A stretch of 21,088 bases of DNA. Origin: a virus. The stretch spans positions 1 through 21,088 of the IMG/VR virus record IMGVR_UViG_3300031227_016376; one strand, 5' to 3'. The position numbers and the translations under genes were made by a program. The notes under the pieces are model-generated. The model was given only the letters and a program-made list of their open reading frames with translations. It made no database searches and was not told the origin of the DNA. Shown piece after piece: positions 3,138-20,518 of the stretch (the first letter of the stretch is position 1; each line of letters opens with the position of its first letter).

Positions 3138-4146
3138 AATTTTACCTGCGGTAGATAATAAGGGACTTGTCCCTGAGTTCCAACATCTATTTTTTGATGG
3201 TCATTATGTTGAGGCTACTAACGGATCAATGTTTATTCGAGCTGAGCTGGATGAGGAGGTTCCTACATTTGCAGTAGAGGCTGCTGTTTTTCACTCACTT
3301 CTTAAGACGATTCAGGATGATGAAATCGAAATCGCAGTGAAAGAAAAAGCTGTTTCTATAAAAACAAAGAGCATTAAAACTGAGTTAGGTCTTCCAGAAA
3401 AAAAGTTGGTTAGTAGTATCAATTTTGATGTTGAAGAATGGAAAGAAGTTCCTGAAAACTTTTTAAGAGGGTTGTTCTTGTGTCGATATACTGCATGCCC
3501 TGATCAAACTGCAGGTCCACTTACAGGGGTCTGGGTAGGGGATGATGCTATTCTGTCCTGCGATCGCTGGAGAATTAGCCTGTATTCACTTAGTGTTAAG
3601 ATGGCTAATATGATTATACCTGTTGATATGATTGACCAGGTACAACGGTATGCAGATCAAGTTGAAGGGTATGCTGTGCAAAATGGTACGATTTATTTTA
3701 ATCTTGGAAAAGCAAAAATTGGTGCTAAACTGCTTTCAGGAGAGTATCCATCCGAAAATTTAATTAAATCGCTTGCCCAAGTGGACGATGCAGTTAAACT
3801 TTCTCTTTCAAAAGATTTAAAAAAGAGAATTTCAGAAGCTGGGAAGCGTCAAAATATTATTCAAACAAAGGCTCTTGAATTTGATCGTGTTTCTAATGTT
3901 AATATTGATAACGGAAAGATGACATTGTTTGCACAAAATGAGTCTGTAGGAACAATTGAAGAAACTCTTGGTTGTGAGGATGCAAAGGATGTAAAGTTTG
4001 AGTTTGCAATCAATCCTATATTTTTAACCCAGATGTTTACTGAAGTTACTAATCTATTATATTCTCAAATTAATAGTGTATGTGGGTTTGAAGGAGGTTC
4101 ATTCATTCACTTAGTTAAGACTAAGAGTGAAACAAAAGATGAATAA
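3103..4146 (+). CDS. dnaN: DnaN-like sliding clamp (beta clamp)
   Basis: A sliding clamp encircles DNA and tethers the polymerase. At 347 residues the protein is close to the roughly 366 of bacterial beta clamps and much longer than the T4 gp45 type (about 230). Family-like features are KTLLEATSKILPAV at the N-terminus, a central LLSGEYPSENLI segment (matching the L-G-x-FP of beta clamps) and a late FAINPIFLTQMF segment like the start of domain 3. AAGGAG lies 4 bases before the ATG. The start overlaps the previous gene and the end overlaps the polymerase gene by 8 bases, as expected for a clamp/polymerase pair. No strict catalytic motif exists in this family, so the call rests on pattern, length and context. 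Confidence 0.72.
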   Translation: MKTKTLLEATSKILPAVDNKGLVPEFQHLFFDGHYVEATNGSMFIRAELDEEVPTFAVEAAVFHSLLKTIQDDEIEIAVKEKAVSIKTKSIKTELGLPEKKLVSSINFDVEEWKEVPENFLRGLFLCRYTACPDQTAGPLTGVWVGDDAILSCDRWRISLYSLSVKMANMIIPVDMIDQVQRYADQVEGYAVQNGTIYFNLGKAKIGAKLLSGEYPSENLIKSLAQVDDAVKLSLSKDLKKRISEAGKRQNIIQTKALEFDRVSNVNIDNGKMTLFAQNESVGTIEETLGCEDAKDVKFEFAINPIFLTQMFTEVTNLLYSQINSVCGFEGGSFIHLVKTKSETKDE

Positions 4147-6664
4147 CGCTTCAATACAGCAAAGATCATTTGTAGTGGACGAAGCAGTTCTGCGTAAGAT
4201 AGAGAAATCTCATCGTCGTTTGCATCCTGCCAAGTCTAAATCAAAATATAAGCCAAAGCCACTTGTTCGAGATTGTTCTGTTTGCAAGTTGTTTCAGAAT
4301 TGTAATTCTCCAAAAATGGAGCCTTATGGTAAAGGTCAACTTAAGATTGCAGTTGTAGGGGAATCTCCTGGTAAAAATGAAGATCGAGAAGGTATTCCTT
4401 TTATTGGACCAAGTGGAAAATTATTAGATCGTGGATTTAAGTTGTATGGAATTGACATGAATCGTGATTGCATAAGAGTTAATGCATTTCAGTGTATGAC
4501 TACAGAAAAGAAAACGCCTACTAAAATGAAATTTTGGATGGATTGTTGTAGGCCTAGATTAGAAAAGCAACTTAAAGATTTTGAGCCAAAACTTATTATA
4601 GCACTAGGAGCTGAGGCTATGCGTGCTGTTCTTCGACCCTCATTTGAAAAGCCATCAGCTAATAGATACAGAGGTCTTGCGGTACCATCTCAAAAGTATA
4701 ATTGTTGGGTTGGATGTTGTTGGCATCCTGCATTTATTTTGCGCAGCAATGATGATTTAGAAGATCTATTTTTTAATGATTTAGCTATAGCACTAGAGTA
4801 TTTAGATAAGCCTGTCCCTCCATTGCTACCAAGCAATCATACTGTGCTTTCTACTGTTGAAGCAGCAAAAAAGTTTCTATTAGAGGCACAAACAGGCAAG
4901 ACTCCAATGGCATTTGATTTTGAAACTAATACTCTTAAAACCTATAATAAAAATGCAAAGCTTCATTGTTGTTCTTTTTCTGATGATCCTCAAACAGGCT
5001 ATTTCTTGCCATTACAATACAAAACTTTTTGGACAGAAGATGAGTTAGTTGAGATATTAGAAGCATTAGCTGATTGGATTATTTCTGATAGACCAAAAGT
5101 TGTACAAAATTTGTCAATGGAAGAAAAATGGGTCAATGAGTTTCTTCATGTATCAATTAATAATGTTGTAAATGATACTATGGTAACTCATCATGCTATT
5201 TATAATCGTTCGAAGACAACCAATTTAGCATTTCAATCATTTTTGTTAGGAGGAGCTGATTATAAAAATAGTATTGATGTTAAAAGAGAGGGTTGGGCTG
5301 ATATTGAACCAGAGGACAAAGTAATAAAATACTCAACATTTGATTCTCAGTATACTATTTTGTCACATCATAGCCAAATGGAAAAACTAGAAAAGATGCC
5401 TGAAGTAAAGAAAGGAGCAGAGTTTTTTGTACATTGTTATCCAGCTTTGATTGATATGGAAATGCAAGGGGTTGCAATTGATTGGAACCTTTTAGCAAAA
5501 CAAAGAGCAAATGCGGAAAAGAAACAGAAAGATTGCGATCAGTATTTTGAGCATAGCAGTTTTGTTAAAGATTTTCGACATACTACTGGAAGAGATGTTT
5601 GGAAACCAGGTTCTCCAAAAGATTTTATTGATCTGTTCTATAAGACGTTAAATTGCAACCCTCCTGATTGGAGAACTAAAGGAGGATCCCTTCCAGCAGA
5701 TAAGGAAGCTGTTGCTTTTATTGTTAGCCATGTGCAAGACGAATCGTTAAAAGAGTTCTGTGCTAAGATGATGGAGTGGAAAGGAGTTGATACTCTTTTA
5801 ACAACATTTATTTCGGGGCTTGAAAAAGCTAAGCAAGATGATGGTCTTATACATCCTAGTTTCTTGTTAAATACAGTTTCAAGTTATCGGTCAAGTAGTG
5901 CTAATCCAAATTTCCAGAATCAAGCTAAGAGAGGTGTTGAGCATGGTGAGTTTAGAAAAGTATTTATTCCTCATATAGGAAATCTTCTTGGTGAAACTGA
6001 TGCCTCTGGATCAGAAGTTCGAACTGTGGCAATGCTTTCTAAAGATTCTGTGCTTACTAAACAGATCCAGGAAAAGTTTGATCCTCATAGGTTTTGGGCT
6101 TCAAGGATATTTGATATTCGTGAACAAGATGTGACAGATCAGTTAAGATTTCTAGGGAAGAATAAAGTTGTTTTCCGATTATTTTATGGAGGTAGCTATA
6201 AAGCTGTTGCACATGATTGTAAGATTCCTGAAAGGCATGCCAAAAAGATAGTGGAAGAGTTTTGGGATGCATACAGCGAAGTTAAACAATGGCAAGATAG
6301 CGTAATTGCATTTTATAATAAATATCATTATATAACTATGCCAATGGGATTTAGAAGATATGCTCCACTTTCTCGAGAGCAGTTATTAAATACTGCTGTG
6401 CAAGGAACAAGTTTTCATATGTTGTTAACATCACTTAATGATATTATGAATGACATGAAGAAGAAAGAAATGAAAAGTGTCATGGAGATTGAGGTACATG
6501 ATTCTGCAGTTACTGACATTGTTGAGGAAGAAGTTGAAGATGTTCAAAAGATTCAAATTGCAAGAATGAGAGAGAAGCAATTTTCGTGGCAAGGAGATGT
6601 TCCTAGAGATTGTGATTTTACTTTAGGACCTAATTGGGGTGAACAACAAAAAATGGAGATATAA
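4139..6664 (+). CDS. polA: Family 4 uracil-DNA glycosylase fused to family A DNA polymerase with 3'-5' exonuclease
   Basis: The 841-residue protein has three parts. Residues 43-225 look like family 4 uracil-DNA glycosylase: GESPG (74-78), GIPFIGPSGKLLD (85-97), four Cys placed for an Fe-S cluster (46, 49, 119, 136 or 137) and HPAFILR (196-202). Residues 255-410 are a DEDD exonuclease: DFETN (Asp260, Glu262), QNLSMEEKW (323-331, with Glu where exo II normally has Asp) and YSTFD (Asp402). Residues 430-841 are the polymerase: motif A DASGSEVR (Asp621), motif B KNKVVFRLFYG (674-684), motif C EVHDS (His787, Asp788). The ATG at 4139 overlaps the clamp stop; a GTG at 4127 would add four residues. 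This is the likely replicative polymerase, working with the clamp before it and the loader after it. A UDG domain on the polymerase could detect or remove uracil at the fork, which is inference. Confidence 0.9.
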   Translation: MNNASIQQRSFVVDEAVLRKIEKSHRRLHPAKSKSKYKPKPLVRDCSVCKLFQNCNSPKMEPYGKGQLKIAVVGESPGKNEDREGIPFIGPSGKLLDRGFKLYGIDMNRDCIRVNAFQCMTTEKKTPTKMKFWMDCCRPRLEKQLKDFEPKLIIALGAEAMRAVLRPSFEKPSANRYRGLAVPSQKYNCWVGCCWHPAFILRSNDDLEDLFFNDLAIALEYLDKPVPPLLPSNHTVLSTVEAAKKFLLEAQTGKTPMAFDFETNTLKTYNKNAKLHCCSFSDDPQTGYFLPLQYKTFWTEDELVEILEALADWIISDRPKVVQNLSMEEKWVNEFLHVSINNVVNDTMVTHHAIYNRSKTTNLAFQSFLLGGADYKNSIDVKREGWADIEPEDKVIKYSTFDSQYTILSHHSQMEKLEKMPEVKKGAEFFVHCYPALIDMEMQGVAIDWNLLAKQRANAEKKQKDCDQYFEHSSFVKDFRHTTGRDVWKPGSPKDFIDLFYKTLNCNPPDWRTKGGSLPADKEAVAFIVSHVQDESLKEFCAKMMEWKGVDTLLTTFISGLEKAKQDDGLIHPSFLLNTVSSYRSSSANPNFQNQAKRGVEHGEFRKVFIPHIGNLLGETDASGSEVRTVAMLSKDSVLTKQIQEKFDPHRFWASRIFDIREQDVTDQLRFLGKNKVVFRLFYGGSYKAVAHDCKIPERHAKKIVEEFWDAYSEVKQWQDSVIAFYNKYHYITMPMGFRRYAPLSREQLLNTAVQGTSFHMLLTSLNDIMNDMKKKEMKSVMEIEVHDSAVTDIVEEEVEDVQKIQIARMREKQFSWQGDVPRDCDFTLGPNWGEQQKMEI

Positions 6665-12186: not shown

Positions 12187-12876
12187 ATGAAAGTTCACAG
12201 CATATTTATTACTATTCAGGGTGAGGGGCTATATTCAGGTGCTATTACTACGTTCATCAGATTTGCAGGCTGTCATTTGAGATGTGATTATTGTGATACT
12301 CGATATGCTCAGAATAATGATGACATTGATGATGTAGGGGTTCCATATATCATTGATAAAGTTACTTCTCTTTCTTCTAATCCAAGGTATATTTGTATTA
12401 CTGGAGGGGAGCCACTTGAGCAGCCTCAAACAGAAATGTTTAATCTTTTACAAGCCCTACAAAATTGGTGTGGTGCAAAGGGATTAGAATCAATAGTGAT
12501 TGAAACTAATGGGGCACAAGATGTTTCTTGGTTACTAGATAAACCTTTTAGATCAATTACTTCTTTATCAGTTGATTATAAACTCCCTTGTTCTGGTCAG
12601 GAAGATAAAATGCTTCTTAGTAACTTTAAGCATTTAGGACCAAGAGACGCCATGAAATTTGTTTGTAAAGATAAACAAGATGTTGATGTGGCTTTGAATG
12701 TTCTGGATAAATTAAAAGATTGTCCTGAATGCCAGCCTGTTGTGCTTTTTCATGCTTTAGGAGGTAAAGCAAGTGAGTGGTTACCTAAGTTGATGCTTAG
12801 TTGGGGAGAAGAGCTAAAACAAAGATGGGCTCTTCGTTATGGAATTCAGTTACACAAACTAGTGAATATGCAATAA
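12187..12876 (+). CDS. queE: QueE, 7-carboxy-7-deazaguanine synthase (radical SAM)
   Basis: QueE converts 6-carboxytetrahydropterin to 7-carboxy-7-deazaguanine, the ring-forming step of the preQ0 pathway. The 229-residue protein opens with SIFITIQGEGLYSG, followed by FIRFAGC and the radical SAM cluster motif CHLRCDYCDTRYA (Cys29, Cys33, Cys36). CITGGEPLEQP (70-80) is the SAM-binding GGEP segment. A later VIETNGAQD strand matches the ETNG of QueE. Length is typical of the family. A strong AAAAAGGA precedes the ATG. Together with queF and dpdA it supports a phage-encoded deazaguanine pathway. Confidence 0.92.
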   Translation: MKVHSIFITIQGEGLYSGAITTFIRFAGCHLRCDYCDTRYAQNNDDIDDVGVPYIIDKVTSLSSNPRYICITGGEPLEQPQTEMFNLLQALQNWCGAKGLESIVIETNGAQDVSWLLDKPFRSITSLSVDYKLPCSGQEDKMLLSNFKHLGPRDAMKFVCKDKQDVDVALNVLDKLKDCPECQPVVLFHALGGKASEWLPKLMLSWGEELKQRWALRYGIQLHKLVNMQ

Positions 12877-15197: not shown

Positions 15198-15200
15198 ATT
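15186..15200 (+). promoter_or_regulatory. Ribosome site and probable ATT start codon of the SNF2-like gene
   Basis: AAGGA (15186-15190) inside the helicase tail is followed after 7 bases by ATT (15198-15200), directly after the TAA stop at 15195-15197. From there the frame is open through 44 sense codons to the first ATG at 15330. No in-frame ATG, GTG or TTG exists in between. The spacing fits the other ribosome sites in the window. Confidence 0.5.
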
Positions 15201-16712
15201 AATAATTCTCTTATAACGTCTCAGCAAGCAAAATCATTAGTACAAGAAGATTTTGATTACATCTTTGGGGATAAATATAACTTTGCAACTCCTCCCAAGC
15301 TTCATCAATCTGCATCTATTCTATGGGGAATGTTTCAAGATAGGATTTTATTTTTACATGGAATTGGAACAGGCAAAACATTAGCTGCGCTCTATATGAC
15401 TGCCGTTTGGTATGCTGATCGAGTTCTTGTTGTGTGCCCATCTACTGTTTGCCAAACGTGGGTGGATGAGATTAAAAAACGTACTGATTTATGTTGTGCT
15501 GTGTTACGTGGTGATGCTAACATGAGAAAGCACATCATGGAAACAGATTTTTCTAGATTTCACATCATAAATTATGAAGGATTAAAATCTATTTATGGAA
15601 AAAAAGTACCTGTTATGAAAAAAGGCAAAGTGGTGAAACATAAGTATGTACCTGACCATAAAAAAATTGCTCAATCTCATTATGATTGTTTGATATTTGA
15701 TGAATTTCATCGTCTTAAAGCATTTCAAACTAGACAAGCTCAAATTTCATATGAGTTGTCAAGGCAGGCTACTAAAGTACTTATGATGTCAGGTACCCCT
15801 GTCGCCAAAGATATTCGAGATTTCTGGAGTGAGCTTATGATTTTAGATAATGGAGCAACTCTTGGAAACGATGAAATGGTATTTTTGCATACCTACATGA
15901 ATCGAGTTGAGATTAGAACTAAAACTCATCGCTTCTTTGAATGGTATCCCAAAAAAGGAGCTGCTGATAAAGTTGTTAAGAAAGTTAGTCAAGTTGCCAT
16001 TCGTTATGACGCTTCGGAATGTCTTGATCTTCCAGAATTGGTAGATGAAAAGAGATATATTGATGTATCAGCTGAACAAAGAAAAATAACTAAATCAATT
16101 CTCAATGGGTTAAAAGTTGAATTAGAAGAAGGTAAATTAACAATCAGAAATGCAGTTAATAAATCTGCAAAACTAGCCCAGATAGGAAGTGGGTTTATCA
16201 TAGGGGAACAAGGGATAGAATACCTTCATACAAGTCCAAAGTTAGATGAGTTGATTACTCTTCTTCAAACTGAGATTACAGGACAATGTATTGTTTATCA
16301 TAATTTTGTAGGTGTTGCTCATATGATTGAAGAGAGATTTAGAAAAGAAAAGATTAAATTTAGAGCTATTAGAGGAGAGATTAAGGATAAAGATAAGCAG
16401 ATCAAGGATTTTCAAGAGGATTCTACTATTAAAGTTCTTTTGGCTCATCCTCAAAGCGGCGGGGAAGGCATTAATCTTCAAGGGGCAAATGTAGTGATCT
16501 TTTTTGATCAGATTTATACTGGAGCAACACTTAGAAAACAGTGCGTTGGAAGAGTTCATAGACAAGGGCAGACACAGAAATGTGTAGTGATTGATTTGTT
16601 AATTAAGGATTCCTTAAGTAAGAAGGAGTCAATTGATGAGCAAATTTATGGAGTTGCAAAAAGCAAGAAGGAATTAGCAGAAGAAATTTTAAATTACATT
16701 AAAAGTAGTTGA
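15198..16712 (+). CDS. SNF2-type superfamily 2 helicase
   Basis: The motor motifs are clear (numbers from the ATG at 15330): motif I HGIGTGKT (10-17), motif II FDEFHRLK, motif III MSGTPVAK, motif V GGEGINLQGANVV and motif VI QCVGRVHRQGQ. These define SNF2-like DNA translocases; phage members are linked to recombination or fork remodelling, like T4 UvsW. The first ATG falls only 9 residues before motif I, which would delete the upstream Q-motif region. In-frame sequence before it (SQQAKSLVQEDFDYIFG, then KYNFATPPKLHQSASILWG) looks coding and includes the P-x-x-LHQ-x-x pattern expected there. I therefore extend the gene to ATT 15198, giving 504 residues. Read-through from the helicase stop is the alternative. 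Confidence 0.85.
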   Translation: MNNSLITSQQAKSLVQEDFDYIFGDKYNFATPPKLHQSASILWGMFQDRILFLHGIGTGKTLAALYMTAVWYADRVLVVCPSTVCQTWVDEIKKRTDLCCAVLRGDANMRKHIMETDFSRFHIINYEGLKSIYGKKVPVMKKGKVVKHKYVPDHKKIAQSHYDCLIFDEFHRLKAFQTRQAQISYELSRQATKVLMMSGTPVAKDIRDFWSELMILDNGATLGNDEMVFLHTYMNRVEIRTKTHRFFEWYPKKGAADKVVKKVSQVAIRYDASECLDLPELVDEKRYIDVSAEQRKITKSILNGLKVELEEGKLTIRNAVNKSAKLAQIGSGFIIGEQGIEYLHTSPKLDELITLLQTEITGQCIVYHNFVGVAHMIEERFRKEKIKFRAIRGEIKDKDKQIKDFQEDSTIKVLLAHPQSGGEGINLQGANVVIFFDQIYTGATLRKQCVGRVHRQGQTQKCVVIDLLIKDSLSKKESIDEQIYGVAKSKKELAEEILNYIKSS

Positions 16713-17226: not shown

Positions 17227-17538
17227 ATGTATTGTTCAAATTGTCATTATGGAAGTGAAACTTGCAAACTTCAGGAAACTGGAAAGGTTATAGTTACTTC
17301 TACAGAATTTCAGGGTAAGATAGTTAAATCTGAAGTTAATGAAGTAAAATGTCCTCAATGTGGTTGTAAAGCAGCTCCTCTTTTAGCATCTCCTTTTAAC
17401 CACAAAAAAGGTAAGCCTAAACCAAAAACTCATAAGCAAACAAGAAAACAGCAGCATGAGGCTAAAGATGATCATCAAGATATTGAGGATGCTACTAGTG
17501 GTCATATTAGGGCTATTGATTATACAAGAAACACATGA
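17227..17538 (+). CDS. Small zinc-ribbon protein with basic/His-rich tail
   Basis: The 103-residue protein has two Cys pairs, CSNC (3-6) and CPQCGC (42-47), with another Cys at 13, consistent with a zinc ribbon. A basic linker (KKGKPKPKTHKQTRKQQ) and an acidic/His-rich tail follow. GAGGTGGA lies upstream. Its stop overlaps the rad50-like start (ATGA), so the two are translationally coupled. Function is unknown; a nucleic-acid or protein adaptor role is possible. Confidence 0.65.
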   Translation: MYCSNCHYGSETCKLQETGKVIVTSTEFQGKIVKSEVNEVKCPQCGCKAAPLLASPFNHKKGKPKPKTHKQTRKQQHEAKDDHQDIEDATSGHIRAIDYTRNT

Positions 17539-18725
17539 TTGATTCAATCCATCTTAAAAATTTTCAAGCTCATAAGGATTCATTATTTGAATTCTGTAAA
17601 GGTGTCAATGTACTTATTGGTACTTCGTTTCATGGAAAAACGTCTTTGCTTAGATCCGTAAGATGGGTTAAAGATAATCGTCCAATAACTACAGGTGTTA
17701 TTCGGAGAGCCGCTGGTTCTGTTAGCAAGAAAGGAGTAAAAAAGATTGGGACAGCTGAAGTTACTATGGTTATGCAATCAGAAGCTGATCCTGAAAAGAA
17801 GGATGTTGTTACTAAAATTCGAGGGCCTGGGATTAATGATTATTACGTTAATAATAATCCACTCAGGGTTGTTGGACGCGCAGTTCCTGAAGATGTGACT
17901 CAAGCATTAAATCTTGACGAGATTAACATTCAAGATCAATTAGAACTTCCTTATTTGTTACTAGACACACCTGGAGTTGTAGCGGCAACATTTAATAAAT
18001 TTACTAATCTAGATAAAGTTGGAGCTACAGTAGATTTCTTATCATCTGATCTTCGAGCTAGAAGAAGTGATAAATTAGAAGCAGAAAATCTCTCAAAAAA
18101 ACTTTTGCAGCAGATTGAAGGGTATAGTTATCTTGCTGAATTAAAGGAACTTGTTACTATTTTGAATGAAATAGCTGATGAATTAGAAATAGCAACTGAA
18201 AGGGAAACGATTTTAACAGAAATTATTAGAAGGATGCAAGAAAATGAAGAGAAAGTTAAACAGACAGTTGAAAGAATTAAAACTCTTAAACCAGTTGTAG
18301 AAGAGGCAAATAGATTACTGCCAAAGATCCAGAATCTTGATGTTGAGCAAGAAAAGAGTTTTGCTCTGGTAGAACATTTGTCCCATAACATTAGAGATAT
18401 AGGTGATGCACAAGAGAGATTAAGGGAGATTACAGTTGCATTACCAGTTAGGAGGAAAGAGTTAGGGATAAGAAAGAAACAAATTCTCACTGCCAAGCAG
18501 GTTGAAGATCTAGAATCCACTGAGGAAGCTGAGCAGGGCTTGATTGATAAAATTAAAGATACAGAATTTCAAATTATTGGTAGAAAAAATAACCTTGAAC
18601 AATTTCACATAGAAATGAAAGCAGTTAAGAGTGAGCTAGGAAAAATTGATGTATGTGTGACTTGTGGTAGTAAACTGACTGATAAAACGCGTAAAACTAT
18701 GCTACAAAACTTGGAGGAATTATAA
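17535..18725 (+). CDS. N-terminal half of a split Rad50/SbcC-like ATPase
   Basis: Rad50/SbcC clamps DNA ends for the Mre11/SbcD nuclease. This 396-residue protein is only the N-terminal half. It begins IDSIHLKNFQAHKDSLFEF, typical of SMC-like heads, with Walker A GTSFHGKT (29-36) and a Q-loop at INIQDQLELPYLL (130-142). From about 165 it is a long coiled coil. It ends 19 residues after a zinc-hook Cys pair, CVTC (374-377). Walker B, the signature motif and the returning coil are missing and are supplied by genes at 19668 and 19916. The start overlaps the preceding stop; the end overlaps the proposed Mre11 start. The clean end just past the hook argues for a real split rather than a random truncation. 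Confidence 0.85.
   Translation: MIDSIHLKNFQAHKDSLFEFCKGVNVLIGTSFHGKTSLLRSVRWVKDNRPITTGVIRRAAGSVSKKGVKKIGTAEVTMVMQSEADPEKKDVVTKIRGPGINDYYVNNNPLRVVGRAVPEDVTQALNLDEINIQDQLELPYLLLDTPGVVAATFNKFTNLDKVGATVDFLSSDLRARRSDKLEAENLSKKLLQQIEGYSYLAELKELVTILNEIADELEIATERETILTEIIRRMQENEEKVKQTVERIKTLKPVVEEANRLLPKIQNLDVEQEKSFALVEHLSHNIRDIGDAQERLREITVALPVRRKELGIRKKQILTAKQVEDLESTEEAEQGLIDKIKDTEFQIIGRKNNLEQFHIEMKAVKSELGKIDVCVTCGSKLTDKTRKTMLQNLEEL
18713..18724 (+). promoter_or_regulatory. Strong ribosome site and probable ATA start codon of the Mre11-like gene
   Basis: GGAGGAA (18713-18719) is the strongest ribosome site in the region. ATA at 18722-18724 follows GGAGG after 4 bases, the same spacing as GGAG to ATG in the clamp gene. 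It overlaps the upstream TAA (18723-18725) as ATAA, mirroring the ATGA overlaps elsewhere. ATT at 18728 is the other candidate. No ATG, GTG or TTG exists in this frame before 18746. Confidence 0.5.
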
Positions 18726-19666
18726 AAATTGCATTTACAGGTGATGTGCATTCGAGATTTTTGCCTCCAGAAAATCGTACTGACAAAGATTTCTTTGCAG
18801 TAGTTCTTAATAAGTTAGAACAAATTTTTCAGATAACGAAAGAACATAACTGCAGTGTGCTTTTTCAACCAGGTGATATGTTTGATGCACCTGACCCTTC
18901 TCGTTTTGTAATTTCATCTATGCTTAGGGTTTTTCGAAAGTATTCAGATATTAAGGTATTTGGATGCTTGGGGCAGCATGATCTTGCTTATCGATCATGG
19001 CAAAATTTTAATCGAACTGCTTCTTATCTACTTGAAAGTGCAGGGGTTTTGACGATTGTTGGTCTTGATGGAAAAGCTGTTGAGTTGGAAAAGAACATTT
19101 TTCTGCATGGGCATTCTTTTGAGCAAACAGAAAATTTATCAAATCCTGTTGAAGGAGCATTTAATATTCTGCTTGCTCATGCTACTGTAGGAACAAGACC
19201 TTTATTTCCGGGTCATGAGCTTCCAAGTCCAAAAGCATTTGCTAAAAAGAATCCAGGATACTCACTTATAGTACTTGGAGATATACATTATGCATTTCAT
19301 TCAGTGTTTCAGGATACTAATATTTTTAACGCAGGTGTTGTACTTAGAAAGACTATTGCTGAAAAAGAACAAAAACCAAATGTAATTATTTATGATACTG
19401 AAACTGGAAAGTTTGAAATTGTTTTTCTAAAAGTTGAGCCCTGGCAGAATGTATTTACGATTCCAAAGAAAGCTAAAGAAGAGCAAAATAATAAACTTCA
19501 AAAGTTTATTGCAATTGTTCAAGGGAAAAAGAAGTCCATGGTATCATTTGATGACAACTTACAAACCTATTATGTAAACAATGAAGTAGCAAAACCAGTA
19601 CAAGATCGAGTCGCATTAGCAATGGAAAAGTGCGGGATGAAGATAAACGAACGGAAGGAGTTATAA
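18722..19666 (+). CDS. Mre11/SbcD-like (gp47-like) nuclease
   Basis: This metallophosphoesterase is the nuclease partner of the split Rad50. Started at ATA 18722 it has 314 residues and opens KIAFTGDVHSRF, giving motif I Asp8-Val-His10. Further motifs are QPGDMFD (GDxxD), GCLGQHD (normally GNHD; Gln replaces the metal-bridging Asn), LLAHATVG and VLGDIHYAF. The usual bacterial start choice would be GTG 18746, but that codon is the Val of DVH, so it would remove the catalytic Asp. Residues beyond about 220 form the capping and Rad50-binding part. It sits between the two rad50 half-genes and ends one base before the coiled-coil gene, so all four products are likely made together. Confidence 0.85.
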   Translation: MKIAFTGDVHSRFLPPENRTDKDFFAVVLNKLEQIFQITKEHNCSVLFQPGDMFDAPDPSRFVISSMLRVFRKYSDIKVFGCLGQHDLAYRSWQNFNRTASYLLESAGVLTIVGLDGKAVELEKNIFLHGHSFEQTENLSNPVEGAFNILLAHATVGTRPLFPGHELPSPKAFAKKNPGYSLIVLGDIHYAFHSVFQDTNIFNAGVVLRKTIAEKEQKPNVIIYDTETGKFEIVFLKVEPWQNVFTIPKKAKEEQNNKLQKFIAIVQGKKKSMVSFDDNLQTYYVNNEVAKPVQDRVALAMEKCGMKINERKEL

Positions 19667-19667
19667 T

Positions 19668-19919
19668 ATGTCAAAGGTAGAAGAAATTCAGACAAGAATT
19701 AAAGAGCTTGAAGGCCAGGTAAAAGAAGAAGAAACAATGCAGAGTGTGCTTGAAGGCAAGTTGCAAGTGTTAAAAGACCAATTGAAAGAAAAGTTTAATT
19801 GTGGTACGTTGGAACAAGCTGAAGAGCAGTTACAAATAAATAAGCGAAAAAATGAGAAACTTAAAGAAGAACAAAAGGAATTGTCAGAGCAACTTGACAT
19901 GTTGGTAGCCTCTAAATGA
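19668..19919 (+). CDS. Small coiled-coil protein within the split rad50 operon
   Basis: The 83-residue protein is almost entirely heptad-like and charged: VEEIQTRIKELEGQVKEEE, LEGKLQVLKDQLKEKF, then after a short NCGTLEQ break KNEKLKEEQKELSEQLDML. It has one Cys and no hook pair. AAGGAG precedes the ATG. It overlaps the next gene by 4 bases (ATGA). Lying directly before the C-terminal Rad50 half, which has a short coil, it could supply part of the missing returning coiled coil; that is inference from position and length. Confidence 0.75.
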   Translation: MSKVEEIQTRIKELEGQVKEEETMQSVLEGKLQVLKDQLKEKFNCGTLEQAEEQLQINKRKNEKLKEEQKELSEQLDMLVASK

Positions 19920-20518
19920 ACAGATACGAACAAATTTTAACTGAACGTCAGGCTGAAAGAGACCTTTTAATTCAGCAAAAATCTGATAGTGATAAGCGAG
20001 CCATTGAGATGTCACAAGAGATTGTTGAGTTAGAAGAAGCTAGGGTTGTTGTCAATAGTGTTCTTCAAGCTACTCAGATCATCATATCAGATTATATTGA
20101 AAGTGTTGTATCAACTTTATTACAGGTTGTATTTGGTGATTCGTTTGCATTCAAAGTTGTATATGAGCTCAAAAGAAATCAAAGTGAAGCTCATCTTTAT
20201 GTTTTAGAGGATGGAGAGATGTATGAACCTAAAGGGGAATGTGGAGTCGGCACTTTGAATGTTGCTGCGATTGGACTACGTCTAGGACTATGGGCTTTAA
20301 GAGGTAATTTAACGCGAAAGACCTTTTTATTAGATGAGCCAGCTAAATGTTTAAGTAAGGATAAAATTTCAAAATTTGGAAGTGTATTAAAAAAATGTGC
20401 TGAAATGTTAAAGGTGCAGTTGATTGTTATTTCTCATGACCCTGCACTTATAGAAGCAGCTGGCAAAGCATTTCAGGTTAGTAAAAAAAATGGTGTGAGT
20501 GAAGTGGAGGTTTGTTGA
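19916..20518 (+). CDS. C-terminal half of a split Rad50/SbcC-like ATPase
   Basis: The 200-residue protein starts with about 55 residues of coiled coil and then carries the C-terminal ATPase lobe. GVGTLNVAAIGLRLGLWAL (110-128) sits at the ABC signature position (LSGG in most relatives). Walker B is TFLLDEP (136-142), followed by a D-loop-like KCLSKD and an H-loop VISHD (171-175). It lacks Walker A, which is on the protein encoded at 17535-18725. The two must associate to form one ATP site, with Mre11 bound to the coil bases. The coil here is much shorter than the roughly 200-residue coil of the N-terminal half. Confidence 0.85.
   Translation: MNRYEQILTERQAERDLLIQQKSDSDKRAIEMSQEIVELEEARVVVNSVLQATQIIISDYIESVVSTLLQVVFGDSFAFKVVYELKRNQSEAHLYVLEDGEMYEPKGECGVGTLNVAAIGLRLGLWALRGNLTRKTFLLDEPAKCLSKDKISKFGSVLKKCAEMLKVQLIVISHDPALIEAAGKAFQVSKKNGVSEVEVC

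Follow-up and report, generated by a model that had tools for sequence, protein, structure and literature searches.

A candidate AUA start codon for a phage Mre11/SbcD-like nuclease, and possible AUH starts on other phage DNA-processing genes

An Mre11/SbcD-like gene between the halves of a split Rad50

The window (21,088 bases) spans an entire IMG/VR virus record and consists of a replication and recombination gene block encoding a clamp, a UDG-DNA polymerase A, a clamp loader, a UvsX-like recombinase, a primase, a DnaB-like helicase and an SF2 helicase, with a split Rad50 and an Mre11-like protein at its right end (Table 1). One Rad50/SbcC half carries Walker A and, close to its C end, the zinc-hook-like CxxC sequence CVTC, and the other carries the Walker-B-like motif. 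The Mre11 gene and an 83-aa gene sit between the two halves (17535-20518); a PHROG search with the 83-aa protein returned no match. Rad50 is split likewise in Bacillus phage vB_BboS-125, as well as in many IMG/VR contigs. The arrangement in vB_BboS-125 resembles that of the window in its separate Rad50 halves (PHROG 16465, exonuclease; PHROG 15167, ATPase) and in a small gene preceding the C-half; it differs in that an AP2 gene lies between the halves and Mre11 lies downstream of the C-half, whereas in the window Mre11 lies between them, with ATA as its candidate start.

Table 1 Features of the window discussed in the text.
Feature	Position	Strand	Remarks
SF2 helicase frame (PHROG 62)	15198..16712	+	first canonical start ATG 15330, past the conserved HQ motif
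ATT, best candidate helicase start	15198..15200	+	AGGA 7 nt upstream; alternative ATA 15213
Rad50/SbcC N-terminal half	17535..18725	+	PHROG 16465, 8.8e-25; relatives
Weak predicted RNA hairpin around the Mre11 start	18699..18751	+	-10.7 kcal/mol, z -1.8
GGAGG, Shine-Dalgarno-like	18713..18717	+	GGAG-to-ATA gap 5 nt
ATA, most likely Mre11 start codon	18722..18724	+	codon -7 from motif-I Asp
Mre11/SbcD-like phosphoesterase, 314 aa	18722..19666	+	Pfam, PHROG, PDB profile, fold
Motif I D-V-H (GAT GTG CAT)	18743..18751	+	first in-frame canonical start is GTG 18746, the Val
83-aa coiled-coil-like small protein	19668..19919	+	
Rad50/SbcC C-terminal half, Walker-B-like LLDEPAK	19916..20518	+	PHROG 15167, 4.4e-27

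Several lines of evidence identified the product as a putative nuclease of the Mre11/SbcD type. It matched Pfam Metallophos (4.8e-12) and the SbcD-like PHROG 100 (1.6e-15), and a profile built from alignment A4 matched Mre11 chains in the PDB, including Pyrococcus furiosus Mre11 (P. furiosus; 1ii7) at 1.8e-8. The predicted model had a mean pLDDT of 84.6, and the 50 Foldseek matches listed were Mre11/SbcD entries, at TM scores of about 0.5-0.6. The flanking genes for the N- and C-terminal halves are those of the expected Rad50/SbcC partner. The frame runs uninterrupted for 314 codons and retains the motif-I DxH, GD, GQHD and GDxH as in its relatives, with the metal-ligand residues D9, H11, D53, H87, D88, H154 and H190 all present. 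The usual metal-ligand motifs of Mre11/SbcD are DxH, GD, GNHD, H and GHxH. GQHD (18971-18982) and GDxH (19277-19288) occur in the window and were invariant in all nine rows of alignment A4, and we therefore read them as a clade variant of GNHD and GHxH; the Listeria, Bacillus and Staphylococcus phages of alignment A3 carry GNHD and GHYH.

Elsewhere in the block, an 845-aa family A DNA polymerase (4127-6664) combines an N-terminal UDG domain (Pfam UDG, 6.7e-23, residues 66-217) and a 3'-5' exonuclease in a single protein. A queuine tRNA-ribosyltransferase-like gene (1753-2727, PHROG 887) and a putative QueE-like gene of the radical-SAM type (12187-12876), named from its sequence, suggest 7-deazaguanine chemistry.

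The start region of the Mre11-like gene

The Mre11 frame is open from 18695 to 19666. Read in codons from its upstream in-frame stop, it runs TAA (18692) AAC TAT GCT ACA AAA CTT GGA GGA ATT (18719) ATA (18722) AAA ATT (18728) and continues GCA TTT ACA GGT GAT (18743) GTG (18746) CAT. Direct reading found no ATG, GTG or TTG from the stop at 18692 up to the Asp codon of motif I at 18743, and ATT 18719, ATA 18722 and ATT 18728 are the only AUH (AUA, AUU or AUC) codons in that interval. This bears out the earlier note, which had stated that every standard start removes the catalytic Asp, that GTG 18746 encodes the Val of DVH, and that ATT, ATA and ATT are the only in-frame candidates before the upstream stop. 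Its observation that the ATA overlaps the preceding stop as ATAA was likewise correct, the stop being the TAA of the Rad50 N-half at 18723-18725. Seventeen codons devoid of a canonical start are not rare in random sequence, so that the absence alone proves nothing; it is homology that makes the gap unusual.

To place the start, we collected Mre11 relatives through alignments of the Rad50 N-half and of Mre11, which gave 108 rows; 83 distinct Mre11 sequences remained once two rows without the motif column had been dropped and exact duplicates over 150 residues had been merged (near-duplicates were kept). None of the 83 lacked a canonical start upstream of the motif-I Asp. In 52 of them a start occupies codon -7, which corresponds to ATA 18722 (ATG in 47, GTG in 5), and Met1 of P. 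furiosus Mre11 (1ii7) aligned in the same column. An ATG at this codon, which the earlier note had proposed to look for in homologous phages, is thus present in 47 of the 83 distinct relatives. In the control set for the Rad50 N-half (142 rows, 32 dropped), 0 of 88 distinct sequences lacked a canonical start before the FQ motif. Since 52 of 83 relatives have a start at codon -7 and none is without a canonical start, ATA 18722 is the best-supported start, in agreement with the proposal of the earlier note.

The last base of the GGAGG lies 5 bases before the A of ATA 18722, with 4 nt between. The starts in the window that are preceded by GGAG have gaps of 4-10 nt; the 5-nt gap at Mre11 lies in this range at its short end, so that the earlier description of the Shine-Dalgarno sequence as ideally placed holds for its being in range and not for its being ideal. 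The + strand of the window contains 20 copies of GGAGG, of which only that of Mre11 stands at a chosen start; because of this frequency the match by itself is a weak argument, consistent with the start and not decisive. Taken together, the Mre11 frame combines the lack of a canonical start, an AUH codon at the start position of its relatives and a Shine-Dalgarno sequence within range.

Initiation at one of the two in-frame ATT codons is distinctly improbable. AUU is the better-known weak start, being that of E. coli infC and reportedly of E. coli pcnB, and GGAGG stands 10 nt from ATT 18728. That codon occupies position -5, whereas all of the 77 relatives listed have a start at -7 or farther upstream, and a start there would cut into strand 1 of the predicted model (residues 3-6), which begins just past the ATA codon. 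ATT 18719 follows GGAG by just 2 nt, too near to the Shine-Dalgarno sequence. We give almost no credence to a fusion in which a -1 frameshift from the Rad50 N-half gene within 18695-18722 would lead into Mre11 with no initiation at all. The Mre11 frame does remain open back to 18695, overlapping the end of the Rad50 N-half, and SD-like GGAGG sequences can stimulate frameshifting. Against this, no X XXY YYZ heptamer is in register, and the relatives' Mre11 genes are separate, with starts of their own, in several cases far from the Rad50 N-half gene.

The ATA might instead be a base error or a strain mixture in the assembly, with a canonical start truly present at 18722. A single base separates ATAA from an ordinary ATGA overlap, and three other overlaps in the window (11851, 17535 and 19916) are ATGA; all 83 relatives, moreover, have a canonical start. 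Single-protein scans of IMG/VR with Mre11, the Rad50 C-half and the helicase recovered no close relative, a genome scan with the helicase of the window recovered none either, and a degenerate DNA pattern spanning the Mre11 start had no match in IMG/VR. The base reported at 18722 comes from one contig.

AUH starts on a helicase and on FEN-like nucleases

The SF2 helicase of the same contig bears on this alternative. Its frame opens immediately past TAA 15195-15197 of the DnaB-like gene and contains no ATG, GTG or TTG before ATG 15330, and homology extends 5' of that ATG: the PHROG 62 match begins at residue 26, the nearest relative (35% identity) aligns from residue 25, and all six sequences of an alignment share P33 and Q37. 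A canonical start precedes the [HY]Q motif in 12 of the 12 helicase relatives inspected and is missing in the window (matches L154-L156, L159 and L073-L081 were left out; L129 and L131 repeat others). The alternative candidate ATA 15213 aligns by eye with the Met of one relative (L153) and has no Shine-Dalgarno sequence. On the sequence, then, the lack of a canonical helicase start is certain, and the codon itself, ATT 15198 or ATA 15213, is uncertain.

A decaying Mre11 gene, which has lost its start and yields either no working protein or a product from GTG 18746 without the motif-I Asp, would account for the departure from the 83 relatives. The 314-codon frame with motifs intact as in those relatives, the intact Rad50 halves on both sides and the same start pattern in the helicase make this very unlikely.

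To look for further cases, we ran a homology screen of loci for missing starts among ORFs of at least 100 aa. An initial version had flagged 69 of 844 ORFs, many of them antisense frames, and was superseded by an overlap-filtered screen in which 867 ORFs were testable (694 distinct) and 30 were flagged, including two of the nine testable ORFs of the window. Besides these two window genes, ten of the 30 flagged rows belong to a clade of FEN-like 5' nucleases (PHROG 107; five distinct sequences, with four contigs counted twice). Three further rows (L022, L023 and L046) are one sequence, a small protein that may start at AUU: in L022 3082 the first canonical start falls at residue 72 and homology begins near residue 41, and the upstream sequence TAA AGGAGAACA ATT suggests another AUU start. 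The remaining 15 were set aside by eye: they had a canonical start no more than a few codons from where the alignment begins, were supported by just half of the relatives, or had no AUH codon with SD support.

The FEN-like set comprised 22 distinct sequences, 21 of them complete on the 5' side, and in 5 the motif Asp is not preceded by any canonical start. These five come from six IMG/VR contigs (L132-L137, position 2501), and the AUH codon is conserved among them; four have ATC and the fifth has ATA, each preceded by AGGAG or AGGAGG. Pairwise comparison of the five sequences counted 5 synonymous and 87 nonsynonymous differences in the 10 codons 5' of the AUH, where stops are also present, against 88 synonymous and 18 nonsynonymous differences in the 20 codons from the AUH onward; the coding signature therefore begins at the AUH codon. 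A frameshift or readthrough common to all five was rejected, as the relation to the upstream frame differs within the clade, that frame ending at -14 in three sequences and at -15 in two. Three of the FEN-like phages, when placed on the Mre11 tree, fell on a different branch from that of the window, and the Mre11 gene of each begins with ATG; they therefore support the habit of AUH initiation and not codon 18722 itself. Together with the two genes of the window, they indicate that AUH starts recur on different genes in different lineages.

These observations weigh against an assembly error at 18722. A second, independent error at a start codon would be needed to explain the helicase, the window's main reading frames are unbroken, and the AUH codon is conserved in five distinct FEN-like sequences. 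Because AUH starts recur in this way, a lone base error is unlikely, and the concern raised by the single contig is lessened, not removed.

Proposed initiation at AUA and comparison with known systems

We consider it probable, at roughly 0.75, that the Mre11/SbcD-like nuclease starts at AUA 18722 and is read by the ordinary fMet-tRNA of the host. AUA is a near-cognate start, at which this tRNA forms base pairs with the first two positions. Recoding of ATA as a general Met codon was rejected, internal ATA codons aligning with I in 13, L in 11, V in 7 and M in 3 of 46 cases, which are modest counts. No phage tRNA gene that might supply an initiator tRNA was found in the window, in 10 loci or in 8 records, all of which may be fragments.

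The GGAGG, together with ribosomes finishing the Rad50 N-half at the overlapping UAA, would position the 30S subunit on the AUA, and the terminating ribosome may melt the hairpin predicted around the start. As 8 of 200 shuffles fold equally well or better, this hairpin is suggestive at most: it fits the idea of coupling and proves nothing. The yield of Mre11 would probably be about a tenth of that from an AUG, to judge from AUA reporters in Staphylococcus aureus, so that little of the nuclease may be made, its synthesis coupled to that of its Rad50 partner. The SF2 helicase would likewise most likely start at AUU 15198 (or AUA 15213), with its upstream stop adjoining. We infer the initiation at AUA, the coupling and the low yield, the coupling from gene anatomy and from the general case of re-initiation; that a low nuclease dosage would be of benefit is a guess. 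More broadly, and at odds somewhat short of even, we propose that some tailed phages, probably of Bacillota, use conserved AUA, AUU or AUC starts to keep enzymes attacking DNA structures, namely Mre11, the SF2 helicase and the FEN-like 5' nuclease, at a low, ribosome-controlled dosage, and that such starts arose more than once.

Natural precedents are available in bacteria. Work on S. aureus describes AUA starts for infC, ccpN and citZ and an AUU start for cvfC1, with a yield for AUA or AUU of about 10% of AUG, rising to 30% for ccpN in rich medium (PMC13009471). As described there, these genes resemble those of the window in having a Shine-Dalgarno sequence ahead of an AUA or AUU codon as start, and the conservation of the AUH codon in ccpN and cvfC1 parallels that of AUC or AUA in the FEN-like clade (PMC13009471). 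They differ in being bacterial genes studied by ribosome profiling and reporters, whereas ours are phage DNA-processing genes known from their sequences; compared with those cases, the Shine-Dalgarno sequence of the window Mre11 is not extended, and AUC appears in the FEN-like phages (PMC13009471). The E. coli genes pcnB and infC share with ours a weak AUH codon that limits gene expression; they are single bacterial genes, whereas here several phage genes are concerned, two of which adjoin or overlap upstream stops. For coupling, geneV-geneVII of phage M13 offers a case of translational re-initiation that has been tested (PMC2268962). As there, the start overlaps or adjoins the upstream stop; in our genes coupling is read from this anatomy.

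AUA starts are very rare. In a comparison across 36 genome triplets, 1 of 61,358 ancestral AUG starts had changed to AUU, and none was listed as having changed to AUA (PMC5622118). On these figures the rarity cuts both ways: a true AUA start is surprising, and two genes on one contig together with a conserved clade are hard to dismiss. A literature search for AUH starts in phages found no paper, and a natural AUC start was not met in the passages covered. AUA and AUU starts in bacteria are thus known; what is new, as read from the sequences, is their recurrence on phage DNA-processing genes, including a conserved AUC. If confirmed, weak AUH starts would be a recurrent phage device for nuclease dosing, and AUC would be a conserved start.

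The choice of start also affects annotation. Gene finders that accept only ATG, GTG and TTG would trim the first 8 residues from Mre11, including the catalytic Asp, 44 from the helicase and 18-35 from the FEN-like nucleases, and genes trimmed in this way would be annotated as inactive or fragmentary.
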